Assembly: GCA_017407115.1 (NCBI GenBank)
Contig: JAFQXD010000040.1
Span: 1-64,000 of the forward strand
Length of the DNA: 64,000 nucleotides
From: Methanobrevibacter sp.
Lineage (GTDB): Archaea > Methanobacteriota > Methanobacteria > Methanobacteriales > Methanobacteriaceae
Direction: 5' to 3'
Shown: one piece after another, positions 170 through 61,894 of the stretch
Position numbering within the stretch: the first letter of the stretch is position 1
How the letters are laid out: every line of letters begins with the position of its first letter
The notes under the pieces: generated by a model
What the model saw: the letters and a program-made list of their open reading frames with translations, nothing else
Told to the model about the DNA's origin: nothing
The model's database searches: none
Position numbers and translations under genes: made by a program

Positions 170-592
170 TCATTTTAAATTCTGATTAACTTCAGCAAAA
201 GGCATAATCTTCCACCCTTTTTTAACAATATGCTTCTTTAAACTCCTCTCATCAACATTATGAATCCTTGCAAATTTCTTTATCTGATTCTCACCAACAT
301 ACCCCAAAGCACCATACAACCTATTTAAGGTCATCATCGGAGCTTCGAAACTTTCATCATCTGTGAGAGATTTCCTACGAGATTCCCTTAACGCACACAA
401 CTTCACTTTTAAAATTTCCAACTGGGAAGTTAAATCTTCTATCTCCTCGACAATTTCTTCCTCCTCACTGGCATCACCATACAAATATGATCTTAAAGCT
501 GTTTCCACAAATTTACTTTTATTTTTAATACGGTGATTAGCATCATCCCATAACTCTTCTTCAATTGTTAAGCTGATTTTCTTTTTTCCCAT
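170..592 (-). CDS. Ribbon-helix-helix protein with coiled coil
   Basis: The first ~40 residues fit a ribbon-helix-helix DNA-binding domain: a basic beta strand (KKKISLTIEEEL) and two helices with KSKFVETALRSYL. Residues ~45-70 are a Glu/Leu-rich coiled coil, and the last ~50 residues are basic. RHH proteins bind operators as dimers, so this is probably a local repressor or partition-type protein. The start follows GGGGATAAAA. It overlaps the next upstream gene by 32 bases and ends the operon that begins with the MCM-like genes. Confidence 0.8.
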   Translation of the reverse strand: MGKKKISLTIEEELWDDANHRIKNKSKFVETALRSYLYGDASEEEEIVEEIEDLTSQLEILKVKLCALRESRRKSLTDDESFEAPMMTLNRLYGALGYVGENQIKKFARIHNVDERSLKKHIVKKGWKIMPFAEVNQNLK

Positions 593-845
593 TTTTATCC
601 CCAGCTATTTCATCAAGAACATTCTCATATTCTAAACGTTTAATCTGCAATTTTTGTTCTAACTCTTTGATTTCTTTTTCAAGGAAATATTTATCCACTT
701 CCAATTTCTTTTTATTACTACACCTAGCATCAACAAACCATTCAACCGCATCCCTAACTGAAAATCCTTCCTTTTTCATAAGATATTTTGCACGATTAGT
801 AACTCTACCTGAAACAACACATGGGAATGTATCTCCAACTTGCAT
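561..845 (-). CDS. Small coiled-coil, RHH-like protein
   Basis: The protein has about 94 residues. Its N-terminal half (VSGRVTNRAKYLMKKEGFSVRDAVEWFVD) resembles a degenerate ribbon-helix-helix fold. The C-terminal half is a charged coiled coil (KEIKELEQKLQIKRLEYENVL). I chose the ATG at 845 because GGAGGATT lies 7 bases upstream; a TTG at 854 is possible but badly spaced. It may pair with the neighbouring RHH protein. No enzyme motif is visible. Confidence 0.75.
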   Translation of the reverse strand: MQVGDTFPCVVSGRVTNRAKYLMKKEGFSVRDAVEWFVDARCSNKKKLEVDKYFLEKEIKELEQKLQIKRLEYENVLDEIAGDKNGKKENQLNN

Positions 846-865
846 ATTAAACAATCCTCCTCTTT

Positions 866-1903
866 TTATCTTACACTAAATCTCCTAATGAATTTCACTA
901 AATCTTTTGGATTAGCATTACCTAAACCATAATAGCTATGATACTTCTTATGGCAGAATACGCATAATGTAATCCCATTCTCATCATCAACTCTTAAATC
1001 CTTATTGTGTTTATATCCGAATACATGATGAGCTTGTAAATGTTTATCTCCTCCACAACATTGGCAAACTCTATCTCTAGAAATTACTTTATCCCTCCAC
1101 ACTCTATATTCTGGACTATTCCTATCCCCATATTCTCCAGTGGAGTCAATTTCATAATCATATTGTTTAAGTTCTTCAGAGTCTAATTTCTTAATATTAT
1201 TACCCTGCAAATAGACGGTATATTTACCATTTTTATTGCTTCTGGTTTTAAGCACACCAGTAACTCTAACTAGTTGCCCTAAAGTATAATCATTATAAGA
1301 AGTTAAATCATCTTCCACAATAACTTTTAATTTGCGAGGAGTTTTATTATCCCCAAATGACATGCCTAACATTAATGCTTGAGAATCAATATACTGGGAT
1401 TCATCCTCTAATAATCTAAAGGACCTAGTACCACATTCAGAACATAGTGTCGGTTCTTTAATTTTAAAAGAATCATCCTCTTCAACTTCATGTAATCTCA
1501 TACAACCTCTGCATTCAAAAACACCTGTAATGATTTTAGGTTCTGGATTATTAATTTTTTCAATAACTGCATCAACAGAAATAAATGTGTTAACATACCT
1601 ACTACTCACAGAGTCTAAAGGAATAATATTTGTAAAATTATCGAAACGAATATTGATATCCGCATCTTTAACAAGAGGGTCTATATTTTTAATAGCTATC
1701 CTAGCAGCATGGATAACTTCCGTAGGCTTGTCTATTAACAAATCTGCTAAGTCAGGGTCAAACATCTCTAAGTCATTATAATTTACGATAAGTGATCTTC
1801 TATCAGGATATTCTTCAAGAATATTAAATACTTCATCTTTATAATTATTACTACTGAAAAATTCTTCAAATTTAATGATTGCTGTACTATTATTTGGATT
1901 CAT
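866..1903 (-). CDS. MCM N-terminal domain fused to an HNH nuclease
   Basis: Residues ~1-250 look like the N-terminal part of an archaeal MCM helicase: a helical subdomain, then an OB fold carrying a CxxC...CxxC zinc site (ECRGC...CSEC) near residues 130-160. Instead of the AAA+ motor, the protein ends with an HNH nuclease module at ~280-322: CQCC, QAHHVFGYKH, an internal Asn, and CVFCH. The AAA+ half is encoded by the next upstream gene 18 bases away, so the helicase is split. HNH modules nick or cut DNA, so this could act at a replication origin or as a relic of a homing element. A strong GGAGGG site precedes the ATG. An MCM-N/HNH fusion is unusual; the domain calls are by eye. Confidence 0.8.
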   Translation of the reverse strand: MNPNNSTAIIKFEEFFSSNNYKDEVFNILEEYPDRRSLIVNYNDLEMFDPDLADLLIDKPTEVIHAARIAIKNIDPLVKDADINIRFDNFTNIIPLDSVSSRYVNTFISVDAVIEKINNPEPKIITGVFECRGCMRLHEVEEDDSFKIKEPTLCSECGTRSFRLLEDESQYIDSQALMLGMSFGDNKTPRKLKVIVEDDLTSYNDYTLGQLVRVTGVLKTRSNKNGKYTVYLQGNNIKKLDSEELKQYDYEIDSTGEYGDRNSPEYRVWRDKVISRDRVCQCCGGDKHLQAHHVFGYKHNKDLRVDDENGITLCVFCHKKYHSYYGLGNANPKDLVKFIRRFSVR

Positions 1904-1921
1904 TATTTTTCCCTCCTTTTT

Positions 1922-3046
1922 TTATGCTCTACTCACATACCCCTTGTTAGGGATGTAACATATTCCTTTTTGAACTAAATTTTGAGTCATTTGTTCAGAT
2001 TCTTTTTCTAAAATAGAATACTTATCTTCCAGATTACTATATACAATACTTAAGGGAACATATAGTCCGTAGTCATCTTCTAATAATTGTATTTCTTCTA
2101 ACAGCTTCTGAATTTTATTTCTGTTGGAAAGTATTATGTCTTTATCAATTTCTTCAGGAGTTATTTCACCTATTTCGGGATTTACGCCTAATTCTTTTAG
2201 GCAAGACATTGTTATTCTCACTGCTTTTTCCGCATCTTCCCTGTCAACACTATCTTTAAGTTTGATTTTAGCACTGGCTTCTGCTAATCTGATAATTGAT
2301 TCTAAGTGTCTGGCAGTTATTGGAGAATATCCTTCAGATTCAGCATTCCTAATGTTCACGTAAAATTCTTTTAGAACTTCATTAGCTTCATCAGTTAAAA
2401 TTGGGTTTGTATATTTTCGTGCATATGCAATATATTTCTTAAGTAACTCTGGTTCAAGTTCGTAATGGATTGAAGATGTTTTATGTAATTCTAAAATATG
2501 TTCAGCTACTTTGGAATCTCCTATTTTAGATGGTTTATCTTCAATTAGGAGTATTAAATCGAAATGTGATTTAACTGATGATGGTATCATTATTTGTTCA
2601 GATAATATTTTATATCTGTCAAAATATCCATTATGAGGCGTTGTTATTGCAAGAATTCTATTGTCTTGATTTAATAGGTATCCTAGTTCTTGTTCTGTTA
2701 AATAATCTGTATTGGGAATGCATATTAATTCATCATTGTCTCTAGTATTTAGTGAGTAACTTACTTGATCTACTAATTGGGTTGTGTATTCCATTATGGT
2801 GGATTTTCCTATCCCATTATCCCCTACGATTAATATTTTTAATTCACTTGATAGTTTTGTTCCATCTTTTAATATTTTATGTGACCCTCCGAATAATTGT
2901 AATGCAATAACTTCTTTAATGTTTCGGTATCCTCGTATTGTTGGAGCTATTGATTTTATTATTTTTTCATAAATGTTTGGGTCACAAGCTAATTCTATGA
3001 TTTTTTCCTCATCTTCTTCGGAAATCATAGTGCATTCTATACTCAT
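1922..3046 (-). CDS. Degenerate MCM AAA+ domain protein
   Basis: This is the AAA+ part of an MCM-like helicase. Walker A is good (GDNGIGKST, ~75-83). Further on are an MCM sensor region (LAITTPHNGYFDRYK), the SxFDLI stretch, LxxHI, and a C-terminal helix set (TARHLESIIRLAEASAKIKL). Key residues are changed: the Walker B acidic pair reads ICIPN where IDE is expected, the arginine finger SRFD is SHFD, and the segment between Walker A and sensor 1 is shortened. It may bind ATP but hydrolyse it poorly, perhaps as an origin-binding or loader factor. I preferred the ATG at 3046 behind GGAGTGG over one at 3061. A hairpin-leader promoter lies at 3170-3242. Confidence 0.8.
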   Translation of the reverse strand: MSIECTMISEEDEEKIIELACDPNIYEKIIKSIAPTIRGYRNIKEVIALQLFGGSHKILKDGTKLSSELKILIVGDNGIGKSTIMEYTTQLVDQVSYSLNTRDNDELICIPNTDYLTEQELGYLLNQDNRILAITTPHNGYFDRYKILSEQIMIPSSVKSHFDLILLIEDKPSKIGDSKVAEHILELHKTSSIHYELEPELLKKYIAYARKYTNPILTDEANEVLKEFYVNIRNAESEGYSPITARHLESIIRLAEASAKIKLKDSVDREDAEKAVRITMSCLKELGVNPEIGEITPEEIDKDIILSNRNKIQKLLEEIQLLEDDYGLYVPLSIVYSNLEDKYSILEKESEQMTQNLVQKGICYIPNKGYVSRA

Positions 3047-3169
3047 GAGAATCCACTCCATTAAATTTTTTTATAAAATTCATATGTTTATCTTTTTACT
3101 TTGAAAATTTGTCGAGCGGATTGTCTAGGTTTGTATAAGCATTTTGAAATCATCTCCTACGTTTTTTTT

Positions 3170-3242: not shown

Positions 3243-3327
3243 AGTTTTGGTGTTAGTTTTATGATTACACTAGATAAAAGAAGTGAGAATAAATAATATA
3301 AATCAATTAATATATAGTATACATTAT

Positions 3328-4365
3328 ATGTTTAACAATAGATTATTCCAAAAATTCTGCCGAGACCGAAACGTAAAAGAATCAACAAAACAAGGCTACG
3401 AATCAGCACTAAAAAACTACATGGAATACCACCAAGAAACACTAACCACCCTAATCGACGAAGCAATAGCAGAAGAAAACCAAGGCATACCATTAAAACA
3501 AAGAAAACTCAAAAAAAGACTACTAAACTACCGCAACTACCTACTCAAAAGTAAAAGCAGCCCAAACACAGTAAGAACCTACTTCAGCAAAGTCAAAACG
3601 TTCTACCGCCACTTCGAAATCGAAATACCCACACTACCAGATGTCAAATACAATAAACTATACGAAACCAACTACCTGGATTTACCTACTAAGAAACATA
3701 TCAGGCAGGCTTTGGAGATTGTTGGTGTGGATCTTCGAGCAGTCATATTATTCATGTCATCTTCAGGTACTGCTAAGGCTGAAACTTTAAGCTTAACTGT
3801 GGAGCAATTCATTACTGGTACTCAGGATTATCATGATGGTGGTGATATTGAAATGGTCTTGAATACTTTGGAGCATAAAAGGAATATTGTCCCTACATTC
3901 TATTTGAAAAGGATTAAGACGGATAAATATTATTATACTTTCTGTAGCCCTGAAGCTAGTCGTGAGATTGTTAAGTATTTGAAGACTCGTCAGGATTTAA
4001 AGATGAGTGACCCTTTATTTGACTTTTCGGCTTCTACTTTGTTGGCTAGGTTTCAGGAGATTAATGATGGTATGGGTTGGGGTTTTAAAGGCAAGTATCG
4101 TTTCTTCCGCAGCCATACATTAAGGAAGTTTCATGCAAGTAATATTGGTTTATCAGCGGAGTATATTGATGAGTTGCAGGGCCGGTCGAAGAATATGGTT
4201 CATGAGACTTATATTAAGACTAATCCTGAGAAGTTGAAGTCTATTTATAAATCTGCTATGAAGAATGTTATGATTAGTGAGGAGAATATTCCTGATATTC
4301 AGCATCAGGAGTTTAGTATAACAATTAACATTTTCTTGTCAGGTAAGGAATATAATATATTCTAA
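3328..4365 (+). CDS. Tyrosine recombinase (integrase)
   Basis: This is an archaeal-type site-specific recombinase of ~345 residues and the only clear plus-strand gene. The N-terminal SAM-like core-binding domain covers ~1-110. The catalytic domain shows SSGTAKAETLSL (box I, with Lys where Arg is usual), HTLRKFHASN (the H-x-L-R box) and VHETYIK with the nucleophilic Tyr at ~295. It probably integrates or excises the element. ATG 3328 begins the expected fold; a GTG at 3283 in frame would add 15 residues, and neither has a clear ribosome site. Codon use switches near 3670, from C/A-ending codons to T/G-ending codons, as in a mosaic gene. Confidence 0.88.
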   Translation: MFNNRLFQKFCRDRNVKESTKQGYESALKNYMEYHQETLTTLIDEAIAEENQGIPLKQRKLKKRLLNYRNYLLKSKSSPNTVRTYFSKVKTFYRHFEIEIPTLPDVKYNKLYETNYLDLPTKKHIRQALEIVGVDLRAVILFMSSSGTAKAETLSLTVEQFITGTQDYHDGGDIEMVLNTLEHKRNIVPTFYLKRIKTDKYYYTFCSPEASREIVKYLKTRQDLKMSDPLFDFSASTLLARFQEINDGMGWGFKGKYRFFRSHTLRKFHASNIGLSAEYIDELQGRSKNMVHETYIKTNPEKLKSIYKSAMKNVMISEENIPDIQHQEFSITINIFLSGKEYNIF

Positions 4366-14405: not shown

Positions 14406-14496
14406 CTTATTGGTTGCAAACTTAAAAAAAATAAAAAAAAGACCACAACCCAAATTAATGGATTATGGTCCAAAGATGATACATATGACAATAAAA

Positions 14497-14581
14497 CGCA
14501 AGGGGAGGGATTTGAACCCCCGAATGTTTAACCATCACTCGATTAGCAGTCGAGCGCAATACCAAGCTATGCAACCCCTGC
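14497..14581 (-). tRNA. tRNA-Ser (anticodon GCT)
   Basis: The minus strand folds as a class II tRNA. The acceptor stem GCAGGGG pairs with CCCTTGC, the anticodon stem is CTCGA/TCGAG around CTGCTAA (anticodon GCT, reading AGC/AGT), the variable arm is ATG-GTTAAA-CAT, and the T loop is TTCAAAT in a 5-bp stem with one wobble. No CCA is encoded. It is the last unit of the 19.5-14.5 kb operon and is flanked by element genes, so it looks like cargo rather than an attachment site, though tRNA genes are common archaeal att sites. Confidence 0.9.
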
Positions 14582-14741
14582 ACAATAATTAACAAATTAA
14601 AGGATTACCTCCAAACCCACACCATTATTATTTTAACACCAAAAAACCATCAATTTAAAAAAAAAATTTAATTTATAACATGATTTAGAGATAACCCTTC
14701 AATACTAACTCTTACCACAAAAAAATATATATACCCCTTAA

Positions 14742-16524: not shown

Positions 16525-17334
16525 TTAAAATATATTTTTATCATAATCTATTCTGCCATTAGAATATTTTTCAAATATTACATTAGTATGTCGTTTACCA
16601 GTTAACCATTCTTCTCTGTTGTCTTTTAATTCGTTTAAGTTGTCACATATTGTATCCCAATCCCAGTTGGATTTGCGAAGTTTCATTACTTCATCCTCAG
16701 CTTCTTCATATGTTTTAAATGTCCCATATGAATCTGTTTCGCCATTAATTGTTTTAACAATATAATAGCTGCCACTACTTGATTGTCTAATATGAGTGCA
16801 GGATGAACCCAGTAATCTTTCATGTAAGATTATGCTTTCAAGCCATCCCTGTTTTTTGAAGTAATCTCTCCATCGTGTAGCTTCCTCTAAAGTATCATAG
16901 CATCCGAAATAATATAAGTGACCCTCTATTTTTTTACGGACTTGGAATTTACCATTATATAATAAGATATTTTTAACACTGGATCCATCTAGATTCAGGT
17001 TAATATCCCAATTGTTTTCAATGAAATAATCTCTCCATTTTTTAGCATCTTCTAGGGTATGGTATCTTCCAAAGTATTTTAGTTTTCCGTTTACTCGTTT
17101 ATGGATTTCATATGCCCCATTATGGATTGTAATATAATCTTCACCAGAGGAGGATAGTATTCTATGATAGGGTTTCCAGTTATTAGCTTGACACCAATCT
17201 CTTATCATTAATGCACCGATTAAAGTAGGGTAGCTGCCTAAAGTTTTCTGTTTACCATTAAGCCATTTAGTAACTCTGAAACTTTTATCAGAGCTACACC
17301 ATGAAACATTTGTGGTTCCTGGAATATTTTTCAT
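16525..17334 (-). CDS. Protein of four AP2-like DNA-binding repeats
   Basis: At least four copies of a ~45-residue beta-beta-beta-alpha unit lie in tandem: strands such as YEIHKRVNGKLKYFGRYHT, then a helix starting LEDAKKWRD and ending in NNW. Other copies read FQVRKKIEGHLYYFGCYDT and YYIVKTINGETDSYGTFKT. The plan matches AP2/Arm-type domains of mobile endonucleases and integrases, which bind specific DNA. With no nuclease attached it may be a multi-site DNA-binding protein. It follows the Xer pair in the same operon and lies near array A. Confidence 0.75.
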   Translation of the reverse strand: MKNIPGTTNVSWCSSDKSFRVTKWLNGKQKTLGSYPTLIGALMIRDWCQANNWKPYHRILSSSGEDYITIHNGAYEIHKRVNGKLKYFGRYHTLEDAKKWRDYFIENNWDINLNLDGSSVKNILLYNGKFQVRKKIEGHLYYFGCYDTLEEATRWRDYFKKQGWLESIILHERLLGSSCTHIRQSSSGSYYIVKTINGETDSYGTFKTYEEAEDEVMKLRKSNWDWDTICDNLNELKDNREEWLTGKRHTNVIFEKYSNGRIDYDKNIF

Positions 17335-17356: not shown

Positions 17357-18463
17357 TTAATCCATTAATCTGCGATGATTCAATTCCACTTCCTTAGTAT
17401 CGGTTAGAGCATAGATTGTGGTGGTCTCGATGTTTGCGTGACCTAATAGTACCTTGATTTGTTCTAAAGGCACTCCTTTATGCAGTAAATCGCTGGCGAA
17501 GTATTTTCTGAATTTATGTGGATGTGCTTTAACACCTACTTTCTGACCTAATTCACGGACTATTCTTTCAACCCCATTTACTAGTAAACGTTTATGTGTT
17601 CTACCTGTGAATAGGCTTGCTTCATTATCGGTTCTTGTTTCCAGATAGTTTTGTAAAGCTATTTTCGCTTTACTGTTGAAGTATGCTTCTCTTTGTTTGG
17701 AACCTTTACCATGCACTACTATACTGTTTTCATTGAAGTTAATGTCGCTGCGGTTTAAACCAACTAATTCATTAACACGTATACCACTTGATAATAATAA
17801 TTCGAAGATAGCTATGTTTCTTAGTTTAACCATTTTCTGGTAATCTGTAGTTGCTTGTTTTTGCAGTAATGCTCCTCGCATTTTTTCAATTTCATCTGGT
17901 GTGTAAGGTAATTTGATTTTCTTTTTATGACGGATCTTGTTGATTCCGATTAATGGATTGGACATTATGTATCCTTCATCACAGAACCATTGGAATGTAG
18001 TGTTCAGTACACGACGTTTATTATCAAGTGTCCTGTTACTACAGGTTCCCAGCTTCTGATTAAAGCTAAGGTAATCTCTTACATCTTCTGTGGTTATGTT
18101 TAATATGCTTTTTTGTATGAATTCGAAAAATTTAGTATCTTCTAATTCATAGTAATCTATTGTTCTTGGACTGCAACCTTCTAAAGATTTAGCTTCAAGG
18201 AATCTGTTTAATAATTCCCTGTTAATATGGTTGACATCCATGCTTTCTTCATTATCATCGGATACGACGATTTCATATTTCTTTAATACTTCAAGTATGG
18301 TGTCATTTAATCGTATTAATGCTTTACCATCAATGAATACTTTACATTTATTGATGATATTATCGTTTAATGTTTGTTGAATGTTTTTTTGTGGTTGATT
18401 ATATCCACCAACTACTCCAATTCCAGTATTTAATCCTACTGTATTAGCTAGTAAATTACTCAT
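17357..18463 (-). CDS. Xer-like tyrosine recombinase 1
   Basis: The catalytic set is complete: SSGIRVNEL (Arg), GKGSKQR (Lys), HPHKFRKYFA (His and Arg), LGHANIETT (His) and TIYAL (Tyr). The N-terminal ~190 residues hold a SAM-like core-binding domain, preceded by ~60 extra residues. The length is 368. It lies 16 bases downstream of a second complete recombinase, so the pair probably acts as a heterotetramer like XerC/XerD, on dimer resolution or inversion. Candidate targets include the nearby repeat array; this is untested. Confidence 0.9.
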   Translation of the reverse strand: MSNLLANTVGLNTGIGVVGGYNQPQKNIQQTLNDNIINKCKVFIDGKALIRLNDTILEVLKKYEIVVSDDNEESMDVNHINRELLNRFLEAKSLEGCSPRTIDYYELEDTKFFEFIQKSILNITTEDVRDYLSFNQKLGTCSNRTLDNKRRVLNTTFQWFCDEGYIMSNPLIGINKIRHKKKIKLPYTPDEIEKMRGALLQKQATTDYQKMVKLRNIAIFELLLSSGIRVNELVGLNRSDINFNENSIVVHGKGSKQREAYFNSKAKIALQNYLETRTDNEASLFTGRTHKRLLVNGVERIVRELGQKVGVKAHPHKFRKYFASDLLHKGVPLEQIKVLLGHANIETTTIYALTDTKEVELNHRRLMD

Positions 18464-18479
18464 AAAAACTCAAAACTCC

Positions 18480-19538
18480 TCAATTTGTGTATTTTTGATG
18501 ATTCAATTTAACAGCGTTCTGCTCCACCTCGACATATAGCATGGTCGTGGAGATGTTGTCATGGCCTAAGACTTTCTGAACCTGATCTATAGGCATGCCT
18601 CTTTTAATTAACTTTGATGCAACCGTTCTTCTGAAGCGGTGCGGATGTACATTTTCTACTCGGGATTTTTTACTTAATTCTCTCATACGGCGTTCAATAC
18701 CATTATGCATAATCCTTGGAGGTTCACGTACTCCTTGTTTATTCACTCGTGTATGTGTAGCTACGAATAATGCAGGATTATTATCCGTACGTGTTTTCAA
18801 ATATTTCTTCAAATGGACTTTAGCAGCATCATTCAAATAACATATTCTTTCCTTGTTTCCTTTCTCAGTTACTTTAAAAGTCATGCTATTGAAATCTAAA
18901 TCATTCCTGTTCAAATTAACTAATCCGCCTAATCGTATACCACTGCATAATAAGACTTCGAATATTGCTCTGGTTAATAGGTCTTCTTCAGGAATAGCTA
19001 ATCTCATCACTTCAATTTCCTCATCAGAGAATGGTTTTTTAACTTTTTTCTCATATTTAATAGGGCTGATACGAGTCATTGGATTTTTATAAATATATCC
19101 ATTATCACTCATTGTATTAAAGAAGCTATTCAGGGATTTACGATAATTATCAATTGTCCGGTTACTGGCGTCGTTAATGTTTTGAGCGTATTGTAGGTAT
19201 TGTCTGATGTCATCGGTGGTGATGTCATTGTAATGTTTGCCTAGGTATTCGAACATTTTCCATATTTCGTAATCGTATTTGTCAAGGGTTCTTTTTGATA
19301 ATCCTTCTATTCTTTTCATGTTTATGAATTCATTTAATACGAAGCGGTTCTCTGATTCTATATCGTAGTGTAGGTCTTCCCGTTTTTTGGTGAATGTTAC
19401 TTTGTTGAATTCATCGTTTAATATTTTGTTTAGTTCGTATAGTTGTGTGCCGTTTAGGTATTTTTCCATTCGGGATAATATTTCGTCGGTTGCTTGTTTT
19501 TGAGCATCCATGTTAATATAATCGATAGCTGTACTCAT
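18480..19538 (-). CDS. Xer-like tyrosine recombinase 2
   Basis: The catalytic residues are present: CSGIRLGGL, EKGNKERI, HPHRFRRTVA, LGHDNISTT and MLYVE. The start is ATG 19538 behind GATGAGATGAGGTTAT; the upstream frame to 19598 would run into the leader hairpin. It is first in the operon, 70 bases after a hairpin-leader promoter and 150 bases from array A. The order of domains matches its neighbour, so the two are an old duplication. Confidence 0.9.
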   Translation of the reverse strand: MSTAIDYINMDAQKQATDEILSRMEKYLNGTQLYELNKILNDEFNKVTFTKKREDLHYDIESENRFVLNEFINMKRIEGLSKRTLDKYDYEIWKMFEYLGKHYNDITTDDIRQYLQYAQNINDASNRTIDNYRKSLNSFFNTMSDNGYIYKNPMTRISPIKYEKKVKKPFSDEEIEVMRLAIPEEDLLTRAIFEVLLCSGIRLGGLVNLNRNDLDFNSMTFKVTEKGNKERICYLNDAAKVHLKKYLKTRTDNNPALFVATHTRVNKQGVREPPRIMHNGIERRMRELSKKSRVENVHPHRFRRTVASKLIKRGMPIDQVQKVLGHDNISTTMLYVEVEQNAVKLNHQKYTN

Positions 19539-19564
19539 AAAAAATAACCTCATCTCATCAAATT

Positions 19565-19642
19565 CTTTGGGTAAAATAATGATAAAACTAAAAAGCATAT
19601 CTTTAGTTTATATGCTAATATATGTAAAAACAAGTATATAAA
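19565..19642 (-). promoter_or_regulatory. Hairpin-leader promoter of the Xer operon
   Basis: TTTATATA (19635-19642), 26 bases, hairpin AGCATAT-loop-ATATGCT (19594-19616, 7-bp stem), ACCCAAAG (19565-19572), then the ribosome site. The hairpin sequence is unrelated to the others but the plan is the same. Confidence 0.65.
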
Positions 19643-20558: not shown

Positions 20559-21398
20559 TCACCCCCATACTTTTTCAAGTATCTCACGAAACCTTTTATT
20601 ATAAATCTCGAAATCAGGGAGTTCTCGTTGTTTTCCTTGTGGTGTGCGAGTTACCTGTAGCCAAGTATATATCCAGTGACTTAAATTCCTGATAGCTCTT
20701 TCACTTAACCTGTTTAGTTTACAGTTGCTGCGGTAATAATCAATGCAGGTGTGCATATCTTCTAATAATTGTTCGCCGAGTAAATCTTTATCCTCGAAGA
20801 TGTTTAATAGTTTATCTATTTGTATGGGTGCATTAACATCATTGTATTCATCTATAAGAATCCAAGCTAATATCTGTCGGATACAGTAACAATATGTTTT
20901 AACTACACGTGGACTAAAGTCATCAGTCCGTTTATTATGGATATATTTCATATAGTTACCATAGGTCATGCTGCCGTAGGCATGTTTCAGGGTATTAACA
21001 TCAAACTCAGGTAAACCATTTAAGAAATCAGCGTTGCCTTTATAAACCATCGTATGTAATATATGTTCTCTTAATGTTGGGTTGGATTTGCGGTGTTGGA
21101 GTAAGGTTTTTGTAATATCCCATCCGCTAAAGTCTAAATCATATTCATATACTCTTCGGCCTAAATCATGCATATCTATTACATCCCTTTTACGCTCAAT
21201 AGTAAGATACTCTTCTACTGGTCGGATATAATAAAACCGTACATCATAGTCACTGTCTTCGTTGCTGAAGCCCCATCCTCTTGAACCTGATTCCACAGCA
21301 TATAATATTTTTATATTGAATTCTTTTTCCAGGTTAAATAATTCCTGGTTTACATAAGTGTATATTTCTTTAGATATTCCATTGATAGTGTCAGCCAT
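20559..21398 (-). CDS. RlaP-like nucleotidyltransferase
   Basis: The N-terminal nucleotidyltransferase motif is clear: ESGSRGWGFSNEDSDYDVRFYYIRP (GS...SDxD, residues ~37-60). It matches the large predicted nucleotidyltransferase family related to RlaP, the polymerase-beta-type enzyme linked to RNA ligases in RNA repair. The length (279) is typical. An RNA/DNA ligase is encoded at 56-57 kb, which fits an RNA-repair function. It could alternatively modify a host RNA or nucleotide. Confidence 0.85.
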   Translation of the reverse strand: MADTINGISKEIYTYVNQELFNLEKEFNIKILYAVESGSRGWGFSNEDSDYDVRFYYIRPVEEYLTIERKRDVIDMHDLGRRVYEYDLDFSGWDITKTLLQHRKSNPTLREHILHTMVYKGNADFLNGLPEFDVNTLKHAYGSMTYGNYMKYIHNKRTDDFSPRVVKTYCYCIRQILAWILIDEYNDVNAPIQIDKLLNIFEDKDLLGEQLLEDMHTCIDYYRSNCKLNRLSERAIRNLSHWIYTWLQVTRTPQGKQRELPDFEIYNKRFREILEKVWG

Positions 21399-21927
21399 CG
21401 TTTATTTCCTCCTTGTTATCTTCTTTTTTCTTATAGTCTCCTACAATTTTAATATCTTCTAATTGTCTGAGTAATGGTTCTCTTTTGTACCGTTTGCGAC
21501 CTCGTGTTTGCCGGACTATCCTTTTTTGTTCCTGTTCAATGTCAATAACTAATAGTTCTTGTAGGATGTTTTTTTCCCATCGACACATTTTTAGTTTATT
21601 GACTATTTCCCAAGCTTCCATTAGACTGTCATAATTGCCGAAGTGTGTTTGTCGGCCTTTAACTCTTTTGCTTACTTGGAATTTGCCTTTAGGAGTTAAT
21701 GTATAATATAGGGAATCTTCTCTGAAGCTATTTAATATTAGCTCCTTTACTTCTGGTGGTAATCTTCGGCGGTCCCAATCAACTTTCCTGAGTTCAGCTA
21801 CTACTAACTGTGCATCTTCCTCGGTTTTGACTCGTGCTAGTTTATGGTTACGGCCGTCAAAGTATTTCTGGACAATATATAAATCTTCGGTTTTATCGTA
21901 GGTGTAGTTTTTAGGTTCATCCATCAT
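21391..21927 (-). CDS. AP2-like repeat protein
   Basis: Two AP2-like units can be seen: DLYIVQKYFDGRNHKLARVKT-EEDAQLVVAELRKVDW (~8-55) and FQVSKRVKGRQTHFGNYDS-LMEAWEIVNKLKMCRW (~75-120), followed by a very basic tail (RGRKRYKREP). Such units bind DNA in homing nucleases and integrases. It sits between the methyltransferase-like and RlaP-like genes with overlaps on both sides. Confidence 0.75.
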   Translation of the reverse strand: MMDEPKNYTYDKTEDLYIVQKYFDGRNHKLARVKTEEDAQLVVAELRKVDWDRRRLPPEVKELILNSFREDSLYYTLTPKGKFQVSKRVKGRQTHFGNYDSLMEAWEIVNKLKMCRWEKNILQELLVIDIEQEQKRIVRQTRGRKRYKREPLLRQLEDIKIVGDYKKKEDNKEEINDG

Positions 21928-42601: not shown

Positions 42602-42934
42602 TTATTCTCTCTCGGATTTTGATTGTATATTCAACCTTTCCAGTATACTGGGTAATTGATTAATATCCCAGCTACATTTTTTTAACTCATCAACCACTAA
42701 TTCAGCTTCTTTTTTATCATGATAAGTACCATAATAGTAGTTTTCACCATTTATGGTTTTTTTAATGGAGTAAGCTTTACTTTTAGTCCTTGTAATATAC
42801 TTATATTCACCGGGATGATATTTCCTGTTACGTTGTATTCGGAATAAATCTGATAAGGAAATGTCATATTTTTCTAGGACACTATCTAAAGGTTGATTTT
42901 TCAAATCTTCTAGTAATTTTTCTTCGGAAATCAT
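42602..42934 (-). CDS. HTH plus AP2-like DNA-binding protein
   Basis: An N-terminal HTH-like part (LEKYDISLSDLFRIQRNR) is followed by an AP2-like unit: KAYSIKKTINGENYYYGTYHD-KKEAELVVDELKKCSW. It is a sister of the following gene. Possibly paired DNA binders. Confidence 0.76.
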   Translation of the reverse strand: MISEEKLLEDLKNQPLDSVLEKYDISLSDLFRIQRNRKYHPGEYKYITRTKSKAYSIKKTINGENYYYGTYHDKKEAELVVDELKKCSWDINQLPSILERLNIQSKSERE

Positions 42935-45473: not shown

Positions 45474-46208
45474 CTATTCATCTTGTTCTAAGCGAGGCGC
45501 TAACAAGAAACTCATTTCCCCATCATCAGAGACTAGTTTGAATTTTAATGTTAAAGGCATATCATTACCTAAAGCAATTTCTACAATATCACTGAATTTA
45601 CTGGCCTTGAACATCTCCTGTAATTTAGGTACACTGTAACATGATTTAACAACTTCTAATATATTTTCACCGTGGAGGTATGCTGCTTCTGCGTCACCGA
45701 ATTCCCCATCAGTTATTGCTTTGAAGTAATTCTCATCAACCATAAAGTATACTTTTTCACTGAATAATGCCATGTCTTTTAAACATTCATTAACCAAGTC
45801 ACTTGGAACCTCAACACTTACCGGTGGGTTTAATGCAGGGGGTTGTGGACTTTCATATTCAATATCAATTAATCTGATTTTAAATTCACGGTCAACATCA
45901 CCAGTGAATTTAATAATAACATTACCCTCATCACTGGACAAAGTTAATGTATCATTACCTTTTGCTCTTTTCAAGATTTTCATGAATTCATCAGTATCGA
46001 TAGTGATTTTATCAGGTACTGTGCATTCAAATTCATCAAATACAGTTGGTTTCAAATCAAGGCCGCAAAATACTATGTGTGACCTATCCATCGCTGTAAC
46101 TCGGAATCCTTCACTATCAATTACACATACAACTTCATCGACTATACTGCTTATTGCTTCAAAAGAGTTTTTAAAGAGTTTCACATCACTTAAAACTAAT
46201 TTAAACAT
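45474..46208 (-). CDS. pcn: PCNA sliding clamp
   Basis: The protein of 244 residues has the two-domain PCNA fold. Typical segments are the N-terminal KLVLSDVKLFKNSFEAIS, GFRVTAMDRSHIVFCGLDL (centre loop), FECTVPDKITIDTDEFMKILKRAKGNDTL, the domain link, and the C-terminal FLLAPRLEQ. It encircles DNA as a trimer and tethers polymerase, nuclease and ligase partners. No polymerase, loader or primase is in the window. The ATG follows GGAGGAAATAATAAT. Element-coded PCNA suggests its own replication mode. Confidence 0.93.
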   Translation of the reverse strand: MFKLVLSDVKLFKNSFEAISSIVDEVVCVIDSEGFRVTAMDRSHIVFCGLDLKPTVFDEFECTVPDKITIDTDEFMKILKRAKGNDTLTLSSDEGNVIIKFTGDVDREFKIRLIDIEYESPQPPALNPPVSVEVPSDLVNECLKDMALFSEKVYFMVDENYFKAITDGEFGDAEAAYLHGENILEVVKSCYSVPKLQEMFKASKFSDIVEIALGNDMPLTLKFKLVSDDGEMSFLLAPRLEQDE

Positions 46209-46212
46209 ATTA

Positions 46213-46353
46213 TTATTTCCTCCAAATTTTCTTATTTTTATAGCTGCTGCAACAGGAATTTTTCCTAGTATCAACAACCTTATTAAAATATTTACATATT
46301 ACAAAAACGGACCTTTTACTAGATCCATATTGACATGAATTACATGACTTCAT
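46213..46353 (-). CDS. 46-residue mini zinc peptide
   Basis: MKSCNSCQYGSSKRSVFVICKYFN...SCCSSYKNKKIWRK has CxxC-x12-C-x13-C, the mini zinc layout of this window, with a basic tail. GAGGATGG lies before the ATG and the stop is next to the PCNA ribosome site. It was found by reading the gap. Confidence 0.68.
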   Translation of the reverse strand: MKSCNSCQYGSSKRSVFVICKYFNKVVDTRKNSCCSSYKNKKIWRK

Positions 46354-46386: not shown

Positions 46387-46803
46387 TTATTTTGAATATT
46401 TTCTCCTTAACTCCAATGCGGTTTCATCATCCCAGTCACATTCCACTAGTTTATCCCTTACATACTGGGCGGTTTCAAAGTCAGGATATGTTCCGAAACT
46501 TTTTTTATACTTATCAACAGTTTTATAGATGGTGCATTTACCATGTTTATGTTTTATAATGTAACGATTTGCTGTGATTGTATAATTCCTGCCACCTTTT
46601 AATGTTGGTTTTTCTTTTAAACCAGTTTCCTCAAGAACACGGTTTCTTAGATGATTGTATCGGGCGACACTTAAATCATATTTCCTTTTCAATTCAGGAA
46701 CATGCATCTTTGGATTTAAGAAATCATTCTTGAATGCATCATAGATTAATTCCAAGTTGGCATCGGAATTTTCAACAATATGAAAATTAATGTCTCTACT
46801 CAT
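46387..46803 (-). CDS. HTH plus AP2-like DNA-binding protein
   Basis: An HTH-like part (HVPELKRKYDLSVARYNHLRNRV) is followed by an AP2-like unit KCTIYKTVDKYKKSFGTYPD-FETAQYVRDKLVECDW. ATG 46803 overlaps the upstream stop (ATGA) with GGTGTACT upstream. It lies next to the PCNA gene. Confidence 0.76.
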   Translation of the reverse strand: MSRDINFHIVENSDANLELIYDAFKNDFLNPKMHVPELKRKYDLSVARYNHLRNRVLEETGLKEKPTLKGGRNYTITANRYIIKHKHGKCTIYKTVDKYKKSFGTYPDFETAQYVRDKLVECDWDDETALELRRKYSK

Positions 46804-47348
46804 AGTACACCAAATATTGTTAGGAGTGTTAAACCGAAACAAGTTAAGCAGATAACTAGTAATATGCTGCTGATAATAGTATTCCTACGGTAACTTTTAT
46901 CAAGATGCTCTTTGAAATAGGAATCCTGTAACATTACTGATTCAATTATCTTATCTGCTACACGTTTACCATCATGTGATTTGATAATTTCAATAATCTC
47001 TTCACTAACATCCTCATCCAAGTTAGTATTCAAATTCAAATGCAACTCCATTAACTCATTATTATGTAATTTACTAGAGTTCTCTAAGTGTTGGAGTAAC
47101 ATATTCATTGTTAGGTTACCTTGACTGAATTTCCAATCATAACCATTATCTAATGGAGTGTCTAATTGTGGTGCTATAACTAGGGTCTCCCATTCAAGAT
47201 CATTGGAATCTGATATTCCTATAATCTTTTTTTGTAAAGCATAGTAACCTGTATCATATCTGATTACACGGAATTCTCCTACAGGGTCTCCGTAATCTTT
47301 CTCTTTACTCACCACAAAATGCTCATCATCAAATTCAATAGTGTTCAT
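46800..47348 (-). CDS. Protein with C-terminal membrane anchor
   Basis: 182 residues; a soluble head, a helical middle (ENSSKLHNNELMELHLNLNTNLDED) and a C-terminal span (TIISSILLVICLTCFGLTLLTIFGVL). It is probably tail-anchored. No known family. Confidence 0.72.
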   Translation of the reverse strand: MNTIEFDDEHFVVSKEKDYGDPVGEFRVIRYDTGYYALQKKIIGISDSNDLEWETLVIAPQLDTPLDNGYDWKFSQGNLTMNMLLQHLENSSKLHNNELMELHLNLNTNLDEDVSEEIIEIIKSHDGKRVADKIIESVMLQDSYFKEHLDKSYRRNTIISSILLVICLTCFGLTLLTIFGVL

Positions 47349-60080: not shown

Positions 60081-60470
60081 TTATTTCCTTTTGAGTCTTA
60101 GTCGTGTGAATTCTTTTTCTATCATTGATTGTTCTTTTTCGAAGTCTTTATGCATGTGGCCTCCTAGTGTACCTGAACCGAGACCCCATCTTTGCTTCTC
60201 ACTTAATTCATGTTTGTGATTATGGTACCAGCGGTGTGCTTTCATTCTTGATTGATGACCTCTTGCATCTTTTCGGCAGTCATCCCCACAGTATTTTTCA
60301 CTATGGTGTTGTTTTAGGAATGGTTTTCCACACCATGCACATACTCCTATGCGGGAGTCTTGTGATACTATTCTACGCCGGTGTTCCTCATAATACGCTT
60401 TTGAATTTATTGTCCTTCTAAATTCATCATCATCCCAGTTATTAATACCTTTAATTATACTAATAGCCAT
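60081..60470 (-). CDS. Zinc-finger basic protein
   Basis: CAWCGKPFLKQHHSEKYCGDDCRKDARGH is a CxxC...CxxxC finger of the type found in phage DNA-binding proteins (~46-73), followed by many His and Arg residues (HRWYHNHKHELSEKQR). It overlaps the AP2-like gene. Nucleic-acid binding is likely. Confidence 0.76.
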   Translation of the reverse strand: MAISIIKGINNWDDDEFRRTINSKAYYEEHRRRIVSQDSRIGVCAWCGKPFLKQHHSEKYCGDDCRKDARGHQSRMKAHRWYHNHKHELSEKQRWGLGSGTLGGHMHKDFEKEQSMIEKEFTRLRLKRK

Positions 60471-61152
60471 GTTCTGCTTCTTCTACCACCTTCTCTCTTT
60501 CGTTCATCCACTTAGTTACATTCCATGAAATATCTTCAAGATAATCCCTTACATGTACAGCTGCATCGATAGTTTTATAATATCCGAATGCTCTTGGTTT
60601 GCCCTCGATGTTTTTACGGATTAAATATTTACCTGTTGGTTTGTATTTGTAAATGTATCGAGTATTTTTTGTTGTGCGAGTGTCTTCCAGGCCATGTTCT
60701 TTTTTTATCTGATTTAATAAGTCATAGAATCTATGGTATGGTATTTGATATTTTTTTAGGATATCACTCCATAACATTTTTTTAGTGTAATAGTCTGTTT
60801 CGATTAATTTTTTCATATGTTCGTCTGTCGCTTGCTCTATCTCAAATATTGAGACTCCATCATCAAATAATCCTAGTTTGATTTCCGCATCCTCACGTGT
60901 AGGAGCATATGTTATGATTTCAAAATCATCATTAGAGATATGTTTTTTAATGAAGTATGAATCTTTAACATATTTCCCATACCTATGAGGTGTACGACGA
61001 TAATTTGATGGTAATCCTAAGTCATGTTTAACTTCTAATAGTAACTTAGAGTATTCATCATGTGTTAAGTCTAGTTTTTTCTGTAGTTCTATTGAAGTTA
61101 AATTACTATAGAATAATCTTCTTAATTCATCTCGTTTTTCTTTGGGCATCAT
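60460..61152 (-). CDS. Two HTH/AP2-like units protein
   Basis: Two repeats: HTH (TSIELQKKLDLTHDEYSKL) plus AP2-like (YFIKKHISNDDFEIITYAP), then HTH (ILKKYQIPYHRFYDLLNQI) plus AP2-like (YLIRKNIEGKPRAFGYYKT...VRDYLEDISW). About 230 residues. A modular DNA binder of the local family. Confidence 0.77.
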   Translation of the reverse strand: MMPKEKRDELRRLFYSNLTSIELQKKLDLTHDEYSKLLLEVKHDLGLPSNYRRTPHRYGKYVKDSYFIKKHISNDDFEIITYAPTREDAEIKLGLFDDGVSIFEIEQATDEHMKKLIETDYYTKKMLWSDILKKYQIPYHRFYDLLNQIKKEHGLEDTRTTKNTRYIYKYKPTGKYLIRKNIEGKPRAFGYYKTIDAAVHVRDYLEDISWNVTKWMNEREKVVEEAEHGY

Positions 61153-61189
61153 AATCATCATCTAAAAAAAAAATATAAAAAAAATTTTT

Positions 61190-61894
61190 TTATGATTTTG
61201 GGAATAGGTAATTATAGAAATCTTCACGTTCTTGTGATGTTAATTCATTTGATTTCATCATTTTGAAACTTACACTATTCAAGAGTTTCCTATCACATTC
61301 TCTGTCAGGATATAACTCATGACATTTAGCTACAACACTATCATAACATGCTGGTTTAGGAACCTGTTTAACTGGTTTGGAATTAGTTTTTTTACGAGTA
61401 GTGTTGGGATTATTATTTGTGTTATTGTTTTTTGGTGGTTCCTCGGTAGGTAATGCGTCGATTGAATCCGGTTCGGTTATATCGAACATTGCCATGTATG
61501 AATATTTCCTCATATATGTTTGGTATGATCCTTCACTTTGTATTATATTCATTCTTTGTAACTCTCTGAGTGGAGGTCTAGGAGAATGAACACTGATAGT
61601 GTCTTCAGGATTATCAACATTTATAAGTGTTAGTATTACTTGTTCTGTGTCTGGGAAATCGGCATGTGTTAGGCAACGATATTTTTTACATAATCTGTTT
61701 ACTGGTGGGAGTATGTCTTTTAGTTCATGGTAGTCGAATTTGCCGTATTGGTTGTGGCCTGATTTTTTTATTTCACAGTCTAATAGTTCGAATTTTATGT
61801 TCATGAGTTTTTCATGGATACTCATTTTTTTGATTTCTTCTAATTCATCAATCTCTGTTGTCTCGTTTTTGTTTTTCTTTGGGTTTTTTGCCAT
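61190..61894 (-). CDS. ERF-family single-strand annealing protein
   Basis: SIHEKLMNIKFELLDCEI, GHNQYGKFDYHELKDILPPVNRLCKKY and the GSYQTYMRKYSYMAMF segment match ERF/Sak-type recombinases. It would pair with the DEDDh exonuclease in phage-type recombination. A low-complexity Asn/Lys/Thr linker and a ~50-residue C-terminal domain follow. The ACCCAAAG word near 61877 is inside this gene's coding Lys/Asn stretch and is a coincidence. Confidence 0.82.
   Translation of the reverse strand: MAKNPKKNKNETTEIDELEEIKKMSIHEKLMNIKFELLDCEIKKSGHNQYGKFDYHELKDILPPVNRLCKKYRCLTHADFPDTEQVILTLINVDNPEDTISVHSPRPPLRELQRMNIIQSEGSYQTYMRKYSYMAMFDITEPDSIDALPTEEPPKNNNTNNNPNTTRKKTNSKPVKQVPKPACYDSVVAKCHELYPDRECDRKLLNSVSFKMMKSNELTSQEREDFYNYLFPKS

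Follow-up and report, generated by a model that had tools for sequence, protein, structure and literature searches.

The DNA analysed here (the window) comprises bases 1–64000 of contig C81 (69,835 bases), which belongs to a genome from the Methanobrevibacter group that measures 2.96 Mb. At 866–3061, on the minus strand, two adjacent genes together span a whole MCM, cut at the linker between the N-terminal half and the AAA+ motor. The gene transcribed first (1922–3061, minus strand, 379 aa) encodes the C-terminal half (C-half), with AAA+ domain, lid and winged helix, and is predicted to lack a working motor. It was assigned by Pfam, by alignment with 15 chromosomal MCMs, by AlphaFold and Foldseek, and by its homologue in genome G050. 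Its start codon is probably the ATG at 3046, located behind a GGAG. The second gene (866–1903, minus strand, 345 aa) encodes the N-terminal half of MCM (N-half) fused to a C-terminal HNH nuclease domain, and was assigned by Pfam (MCM_N, MCM_OB, HNH) and Foldseek. The order of transcription is the reverse of the order in MCM. The genes are separated by 18 bases (1904–1921), with a GGAGG ribosome-binding site just upstream of the second start, and the sequence suggests that they form an operon.

The C-half matched the Pfam families MCM P-loop (4.4e-34), MCM_lid (2.7e-28) and MCM_WH_arc (1.9e-13). The N-half–HNH protein matched MCM_N (9.9e-10), MCM_OB (2.3e-14) and HNH/HNH_2 (about 1e-3), the last with a score just below the gathering score in the window copy and above it in several homologues. 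No intein family was among the Pfam matches. The protein consists of an A domain (aa 11–75), a zinc ribbon (aa 123–165), an OB fold and, after a short linker, the HNH domain (aa 260–345; 869–1126, minus strand). With its A domain, C4 zinc ribbon and OB fold, it belongs to the MCM N-terminal domain family (PF14551 and PF17207). Residues H292, H293, N309, C314, C317 and H318 of the HNH domain were invariant across the fusions in two alignments (A1 and A2); with its catalytic HH/N/H residues and cysteine ligands present, the domain is a putative active nuclease. AlphaFold models of each half were compared using Foldseek and the best match was MCM in both cases. The top match of the N-half was 1ltl, the N-terminal MCM dodecamer of M. 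thermautotrophicus, which is the closest solved structure. The host has its own intact chromosomal MCM (666 aa, contig C78), with which the N-half shares 57% identity and the C-half 55–64%. These results agree with the sequence-only reading of the locus as a split MCM with an HNH nuclease.

The minus strand carries nearly all the genes of C81 up to about 64.8 kb. An integrase gene lies at C81:63670–64830 and chromosomal-looking genes are found beyond it. This run of genes, the boundary integrase and the chromosomal-looking genes that follow indicate that C81 holds most of an integrated element, whose left end runs off the contig. Upstream of the C-half, and divergent from it, is a gene for an integrase-like protein with a SAM-like N domain (3283–4365, plus strand; Pfam), related to the integrase at the chromosomal boundary. 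Downstream of the N-half–HNH gene are two small genes assigned by blastp. The first (561–854, minus strand; phrog_12096) encodes a coiled-coil protein with homologues after MCM-N–HNH in L078, L093 and G062, and the second (170–592, minus strand; phrog_12892) a CcdA-like/coiled-coil protein with homologues adjoining MCM-N(–HNH) in the phi-mru-like locus, G021 and G031. The element also encodes a PCNA (45474–46277, minus strand; PCNA_N 3.2e-15), an ERF-family single-strand annealing protein (61190–61894, minus strand; ERF 1.3e-13), a DnaQ-like exonuclease, a dCTP deaminase, an N6 methylase and tyrosine recombinases. The C81 ORFs examined yielded no recognisable capsid or terminase gene. A closely similar gene pair is present on a partly related element, contig C72 of G050. 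Neither C81 nor C72 gave a sign of being circular, and no attachment repeats were found. The search for a replication origin gave only weak repeats, at 85–120 and upstream of 3061. The former, at the left contig end, is a tandem 18-base repeat, TATCCATACTAATACGgA, which was not found at the element's right boundary.

The C-half is known from two elements only, those of the window and of G050, and both copies were aligned with the 15 chromosomal MCMs. Walker A is retained in the window copy (GDNGIGKST) and lost in G050. The acidic residues of Walker B are gone in the window (NVCVDELDKM to LICIPNTDYL), and the helix-2 insert and the pre-sensor-1 hairpin are deleted or rewritten. The stretch running from the helix-2 insert through Walker B to this hairpin is nearly invariant in the chromosomal MCMs; the window copy keeps 9 of its 82 positions and the G050 copy 5 of 82. 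Sensor 1 and the arginine finger are altered in both copies, with AAANP changed to AITTP (loss of the Asn) and SRFD to SHFD in the window. Moreover, the N-tier and the AAA+ tier are here in separate ORFs, and the allosteric communication loop of the window pair keeps 1 of 15 host-invariant residues. According to the established mechanism of MCM, the C-half is predicted to be unable to hydrolyse ATP and pump DNA normally. The good Walker A, the lost Walker B acids and the lost arginine finger had all been noted from the letters of the window, and the alignment bears them out. The claim that such a motor should not unwind DNA is strengthened, with the helix-2 insert, the pre-sensor-1 hairpin and sensor 1 hit as well and the same loss in G050. 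A chimeric assembly error, also considered at that stage, is refuted, since the same damage occurs in the independent element of G050 and the fusion is found in other independent genomes.

In phylogenetic trees, both halves were nested, on long branches, within the chromosomal MCMs of Methanobrevibacter relatives. The MCMs of other elements in these genomes are intact and distant, unlike the two halves. By sequence, both halves descend from a Methanobrevibacter chromosomal MCM. The C-halves of the window and G050 grouped together (95/93), a grouping to be read with a warning about long branches; the loss of the same stretch in both speaks for one origin.

Retention was counted over the positions that are invariant in host MCMs. 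In the window N-half, the A domain keeps 46 of 51 such positions, compared with 39 of 105 in the rest of the N-half minus the zinc ribbon (p 1.5e-10). The zinc ribbon keeps 26 of 32 and the DNA-binding N-terminal hairpin 4 of 14. This contrast between the A domain and the rest was seen in each of the eight N-halves tested (p from 1e-12 to 1e-3). Of the host-invariant positions in the C-half, 76 of 88 remain in the N-terminal helices and lid, and 37 of 131 in the motor stretches. The zinc cysteines are invariant in five aligned fusions, and in the closest pair no other part is as constrained as the HNH domain (dN/dS 0.045). When A domains were compared with host MCMs, dN was low and dS mostly high or saturated. 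With synonymous sites mostly strongly diverged or saturated, recent gene conversion is unsupported, and the conservation of the A domain is due to selection and not to recent copying from the host. The conserved outer A domain, together with the eroded DNA-binding hairpin of the N-tier, points to protein docking more than to DNA recognition.

A search for further fusions gave seven loci in addition to the window (G045, G062, G019, G021, L078/L088, L093 and G104/L129), all in Methanobacteriaceae. On viral contigs, single-sequence scans gave no match and the fusions were found by profile scans. The G019 locus is also IMG/VR L079, and we infer that it is provirus phi-mru of M. ruminantium M1, on a basis that includes a truncated cdc6 beside the integrase. 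Among the eight fusion loci, a C-half was found beside MCM-N–HNH in the window only; G062 and G104 are represented by short contigs. In G031, at a locus very like that of G019, the N-half has no HNH, and in G050 the pseudo-motor C-half is paired with an OB–HNH protein that has neither A domain nor zinc ribbon; neither part is thus indispensable. L129 has lost the zinc ribbon and gave no OB match; its A domain and HNH remain. Genes for ERF or a Sak4-like ATPase are located near MCM-N–HNH in several elements (an ERF gene in L093 among them), and relatives of the small genes at 561–854 or 170–592 come after it. No other MCM match was obtained in the three viral records with MCM-N–HNH, a small number of records that are fragments or of unknown completeness. 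An intact MCM of its own is present in L090, an OB–HNH element, and in G053 C273.

OB-like–HNH proteins with non-MCM N-terminal parts were found in the related elements L070, L071 and L090, two of them beside a DinG/XPD-like helicase. Similarity between the OB-like part of L070 and L090 and the MCM OB did not reach significance, and the label 'OB-like' was kept. Bacillus phage Goe8 had been considered as a further carrier of OB–HNH and was dropped, as its protein has a different N-terminal part joined to HNH. At L070:9685–14918 and L090:1–5255, in large Methanobrevibacter elements, an operon contains an intact divergent MCM, a small CcdA-like protein, a DinG/XPD-like helicase and the OB-like–HNH nuclease.

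The host-like A domain was kept while the handling of DNA and ATP was lost, which is best read as docking on host replication proteins. Our preferred reading, to which we give a probability of roughly 40%, is that the pair is a mimic of the host MCM which delivers an HNH nuclease to the replication machinery of the host and probably aids replication or recombination of the element. The C-half would be a pseudo-ATPase that pumps no DNA, and the N-half, with its host-derived outer A domain and zinc ribbon retained, would carry the nuclease. The retained surfaces may bind Orc1/Cdc6, GINS with RecJ/GAN, or host MCM rings. In the eukaryotic CMG, the A domains of MCM have an extension of Cdc45 reaching between them (PMC4359367); in archaea, GINS is a binding partner of MCM (PMC4356968). 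Docking would place the HNH domain at an origin or a fork, where nicking would start or feed recombination-dependent replication of an element without intact MCM, and the effect on replication would presumably be help and not harm. The origin recognition/nicking machine built from MCM that the sequence-only reading had put forward is possible. In favour of the mimic are the lack of any other MCM in the three viral fusion records, compared with the own MCM of the related OB–HNH element, the ERF or Sak4-like ATPase neighbours in several elements and the PCNA of the window element. Against it, the conserved A domain could equally fit inhibition, the C-half is restricted to two elements, one of them without Walker A as well, and could be drifting, the proteins of G031 and G050 each do without one part, and the viral records may be incomplete.

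Inhibition is the core of the main alternative, itself rather unlikely, in which the MCM pieces poison replication of the host or of a competitor, whether as dominant-negative subunits or as docking decoys, with the HNH cutting DNA at MCM-driven forks, for superinfection exclusion or host shut-off. Pieces with a dead motor and conserved interfaces are what a poison subunit is expected to look like, and a haloarchaeal plasmid encodes, independently, MCM-N fused to a PD-(D/E)XK nuclease domain (HsdR-N). However, a number of the carriers coexist with the host as proviruses or integrated elements, and in several elements the gene sits among replication and recombination genes. The PADLOC search for defence systems gave no match for the N-half–HNH protein and only insignificant ones for the C-half. 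Decay of a captured MCM, with function being lost and the HNH as the sole part under selection, is an improbable reading of the pair. The fast branches in the tree and the differing Walker A states of the two known C-halves would fit such decay, but the frames are open, a ribosome-binding site is present, and the strong selective retention of the A domain and lid and the invariant zinc cysteines also speak against it. The OB-like–HNH proteins with other N-terminal parts, two of them next to a helicase gene, raise the distinctly improbable case of a general recombination nuclease whose OB was swapped for the OB/zinc part of host MCM, the likeness to MCM then serving DNA binding and not targeting. 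Yet the eroded parts are precisely the OB and the DNA-binding hairpin, the conserved part is the outer A domain, and L129 keeps A domain and HNH with no zinc ribbon and no OB match found. Homing endonucleases are commonly of the HNH type and the break lies within MCM, but entry of such an enzyme that split the gene, as suggested earlier, is very improbable: the endonuclease does not lie between collinear parts of an interrupted gene, the C-half preceding the N-half–HNH in reversed order, the HNH is in frame at a domain boundary and the seven other fusion loci show no C-half.

Both halves are of the same family, by sequence and predicted fold, as the archaeal MCM helicase, which is replicative and homohexameric. 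The pair differs from it in being split and reversed, in the loss of the helix-2 insert, Walker B, pre-sensor-1 hairpin, arginine finger and allosteric communication loop, and in the added HNH. MCM-N-only proteins are already known: haloarchaeal outliers of 312–315 aa and of unknown function have been described (PMC3972481). They likewise have the N-terminal domain without a motor, one example being on a plasmid, but their sequences are distant and carry no HNH. The haloarchaeal MCM outliers that do have a motor reportedly keep Walker A/B and the arginine finger (PMC3972481). Other mobile elements of archaea also encode MCMs (for example Haloferax tailed virus 1 and Methanocaldococcus plasmids), and these, unlike the window pair, are annotated as MCM/helicase. 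Phage HNH endonucleases (PHROG 8446, 119 and 1271; the Goe8 HNH) have a module homologous to that of the window, but not fused to MCM. The locus matching phi-mru encodes a 334-aa MCM-N–HNH and a truncated Cdc6, without an MCM C-half; for phi-mru, the M1 genome paper describes a cdc6-3 that is truncated, and MCM and HNH do not come up in its main text (PMC2812497). No report of an MCM–HNH fusion or of a split motor-dead MCM was found among open-licence papers.

On a plasmid of Haloglomus halophilum (L116:2492–3985, NZ_CP101168.1), WP_254824912.1 (497 aa) has MCM_N and MCM_OB fused to HSDR_N (PD-(D/E)XK). Like the window protein, it joins MCM-N to a nuclease domain and is encoded by a mobile element; it differs in the nuclease, PD-(D/E)XK instead of HNH, and in its independent lineage. 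Tentatively, these proteins may represent a class of replisome-targeted nucleases, in which archaeal mobile elements fuse the A domain of host MCM, as a docking tag, to different nucleases (HNH; PD-(D/E)XK in the haloarchaeon), with a motor-dead MCM half as partner, and so would cut or nick only where the host replication machinery is assembled. An archaeal virus that encodes no helicase has to take over the replisome of its host, a step of which little is known. A nuclease with the docking domain of host MCM, if confirmed, would name the docking surface and give a concrete handle on this step. The eroded motor, set against the preserved outer surfaces, is a natural experiment on the partner-binding surfaces of MCM in archaea. 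Methanobrevibacter accounts for major methane production in ruminants and the human gut, which makes knowledge of its viruses of practical interest.

Some further observations were made at these loci. On a plasmid of Halosegnis marinus (L114:2459–4355, NZ_CP119803.1), MCM is divided between neighbouring genes of 373 and 254 aa, which follow the normal order, and what lies between Walker A and Walker B is missing; this could be a frameshift or a natural split. Phi-mru-like proviruses carry Orc1/Cdc6 homologues of 274–275 aa (L065:5288–6115 and L068:12395–13219), compared with 375–416 aa for the host frames, and so offer a further case of a host replication protein in shortened form. The phi-mru-like provirus and G031 each have a Cdc6 of this length, and the copy of the phi-mru-like provirus, which was scanned, gave no winged-helix match. 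Proteins with repeated 'YFGxYxTLEEA'-type motifs (window 16525–17334, 21391–21927, 42602–42934, 46387–46842 and 60460–61161) form a family scattered across C81 and C72, and the one member scanned had no Pfam match. A tRNA-Ser (GCT) gene is located within the window element at 14496–14582. An adjacent pair of XerC/D-like recombinases is encoded at 17357–18463 and 18480–19598, with four related copies in C72.
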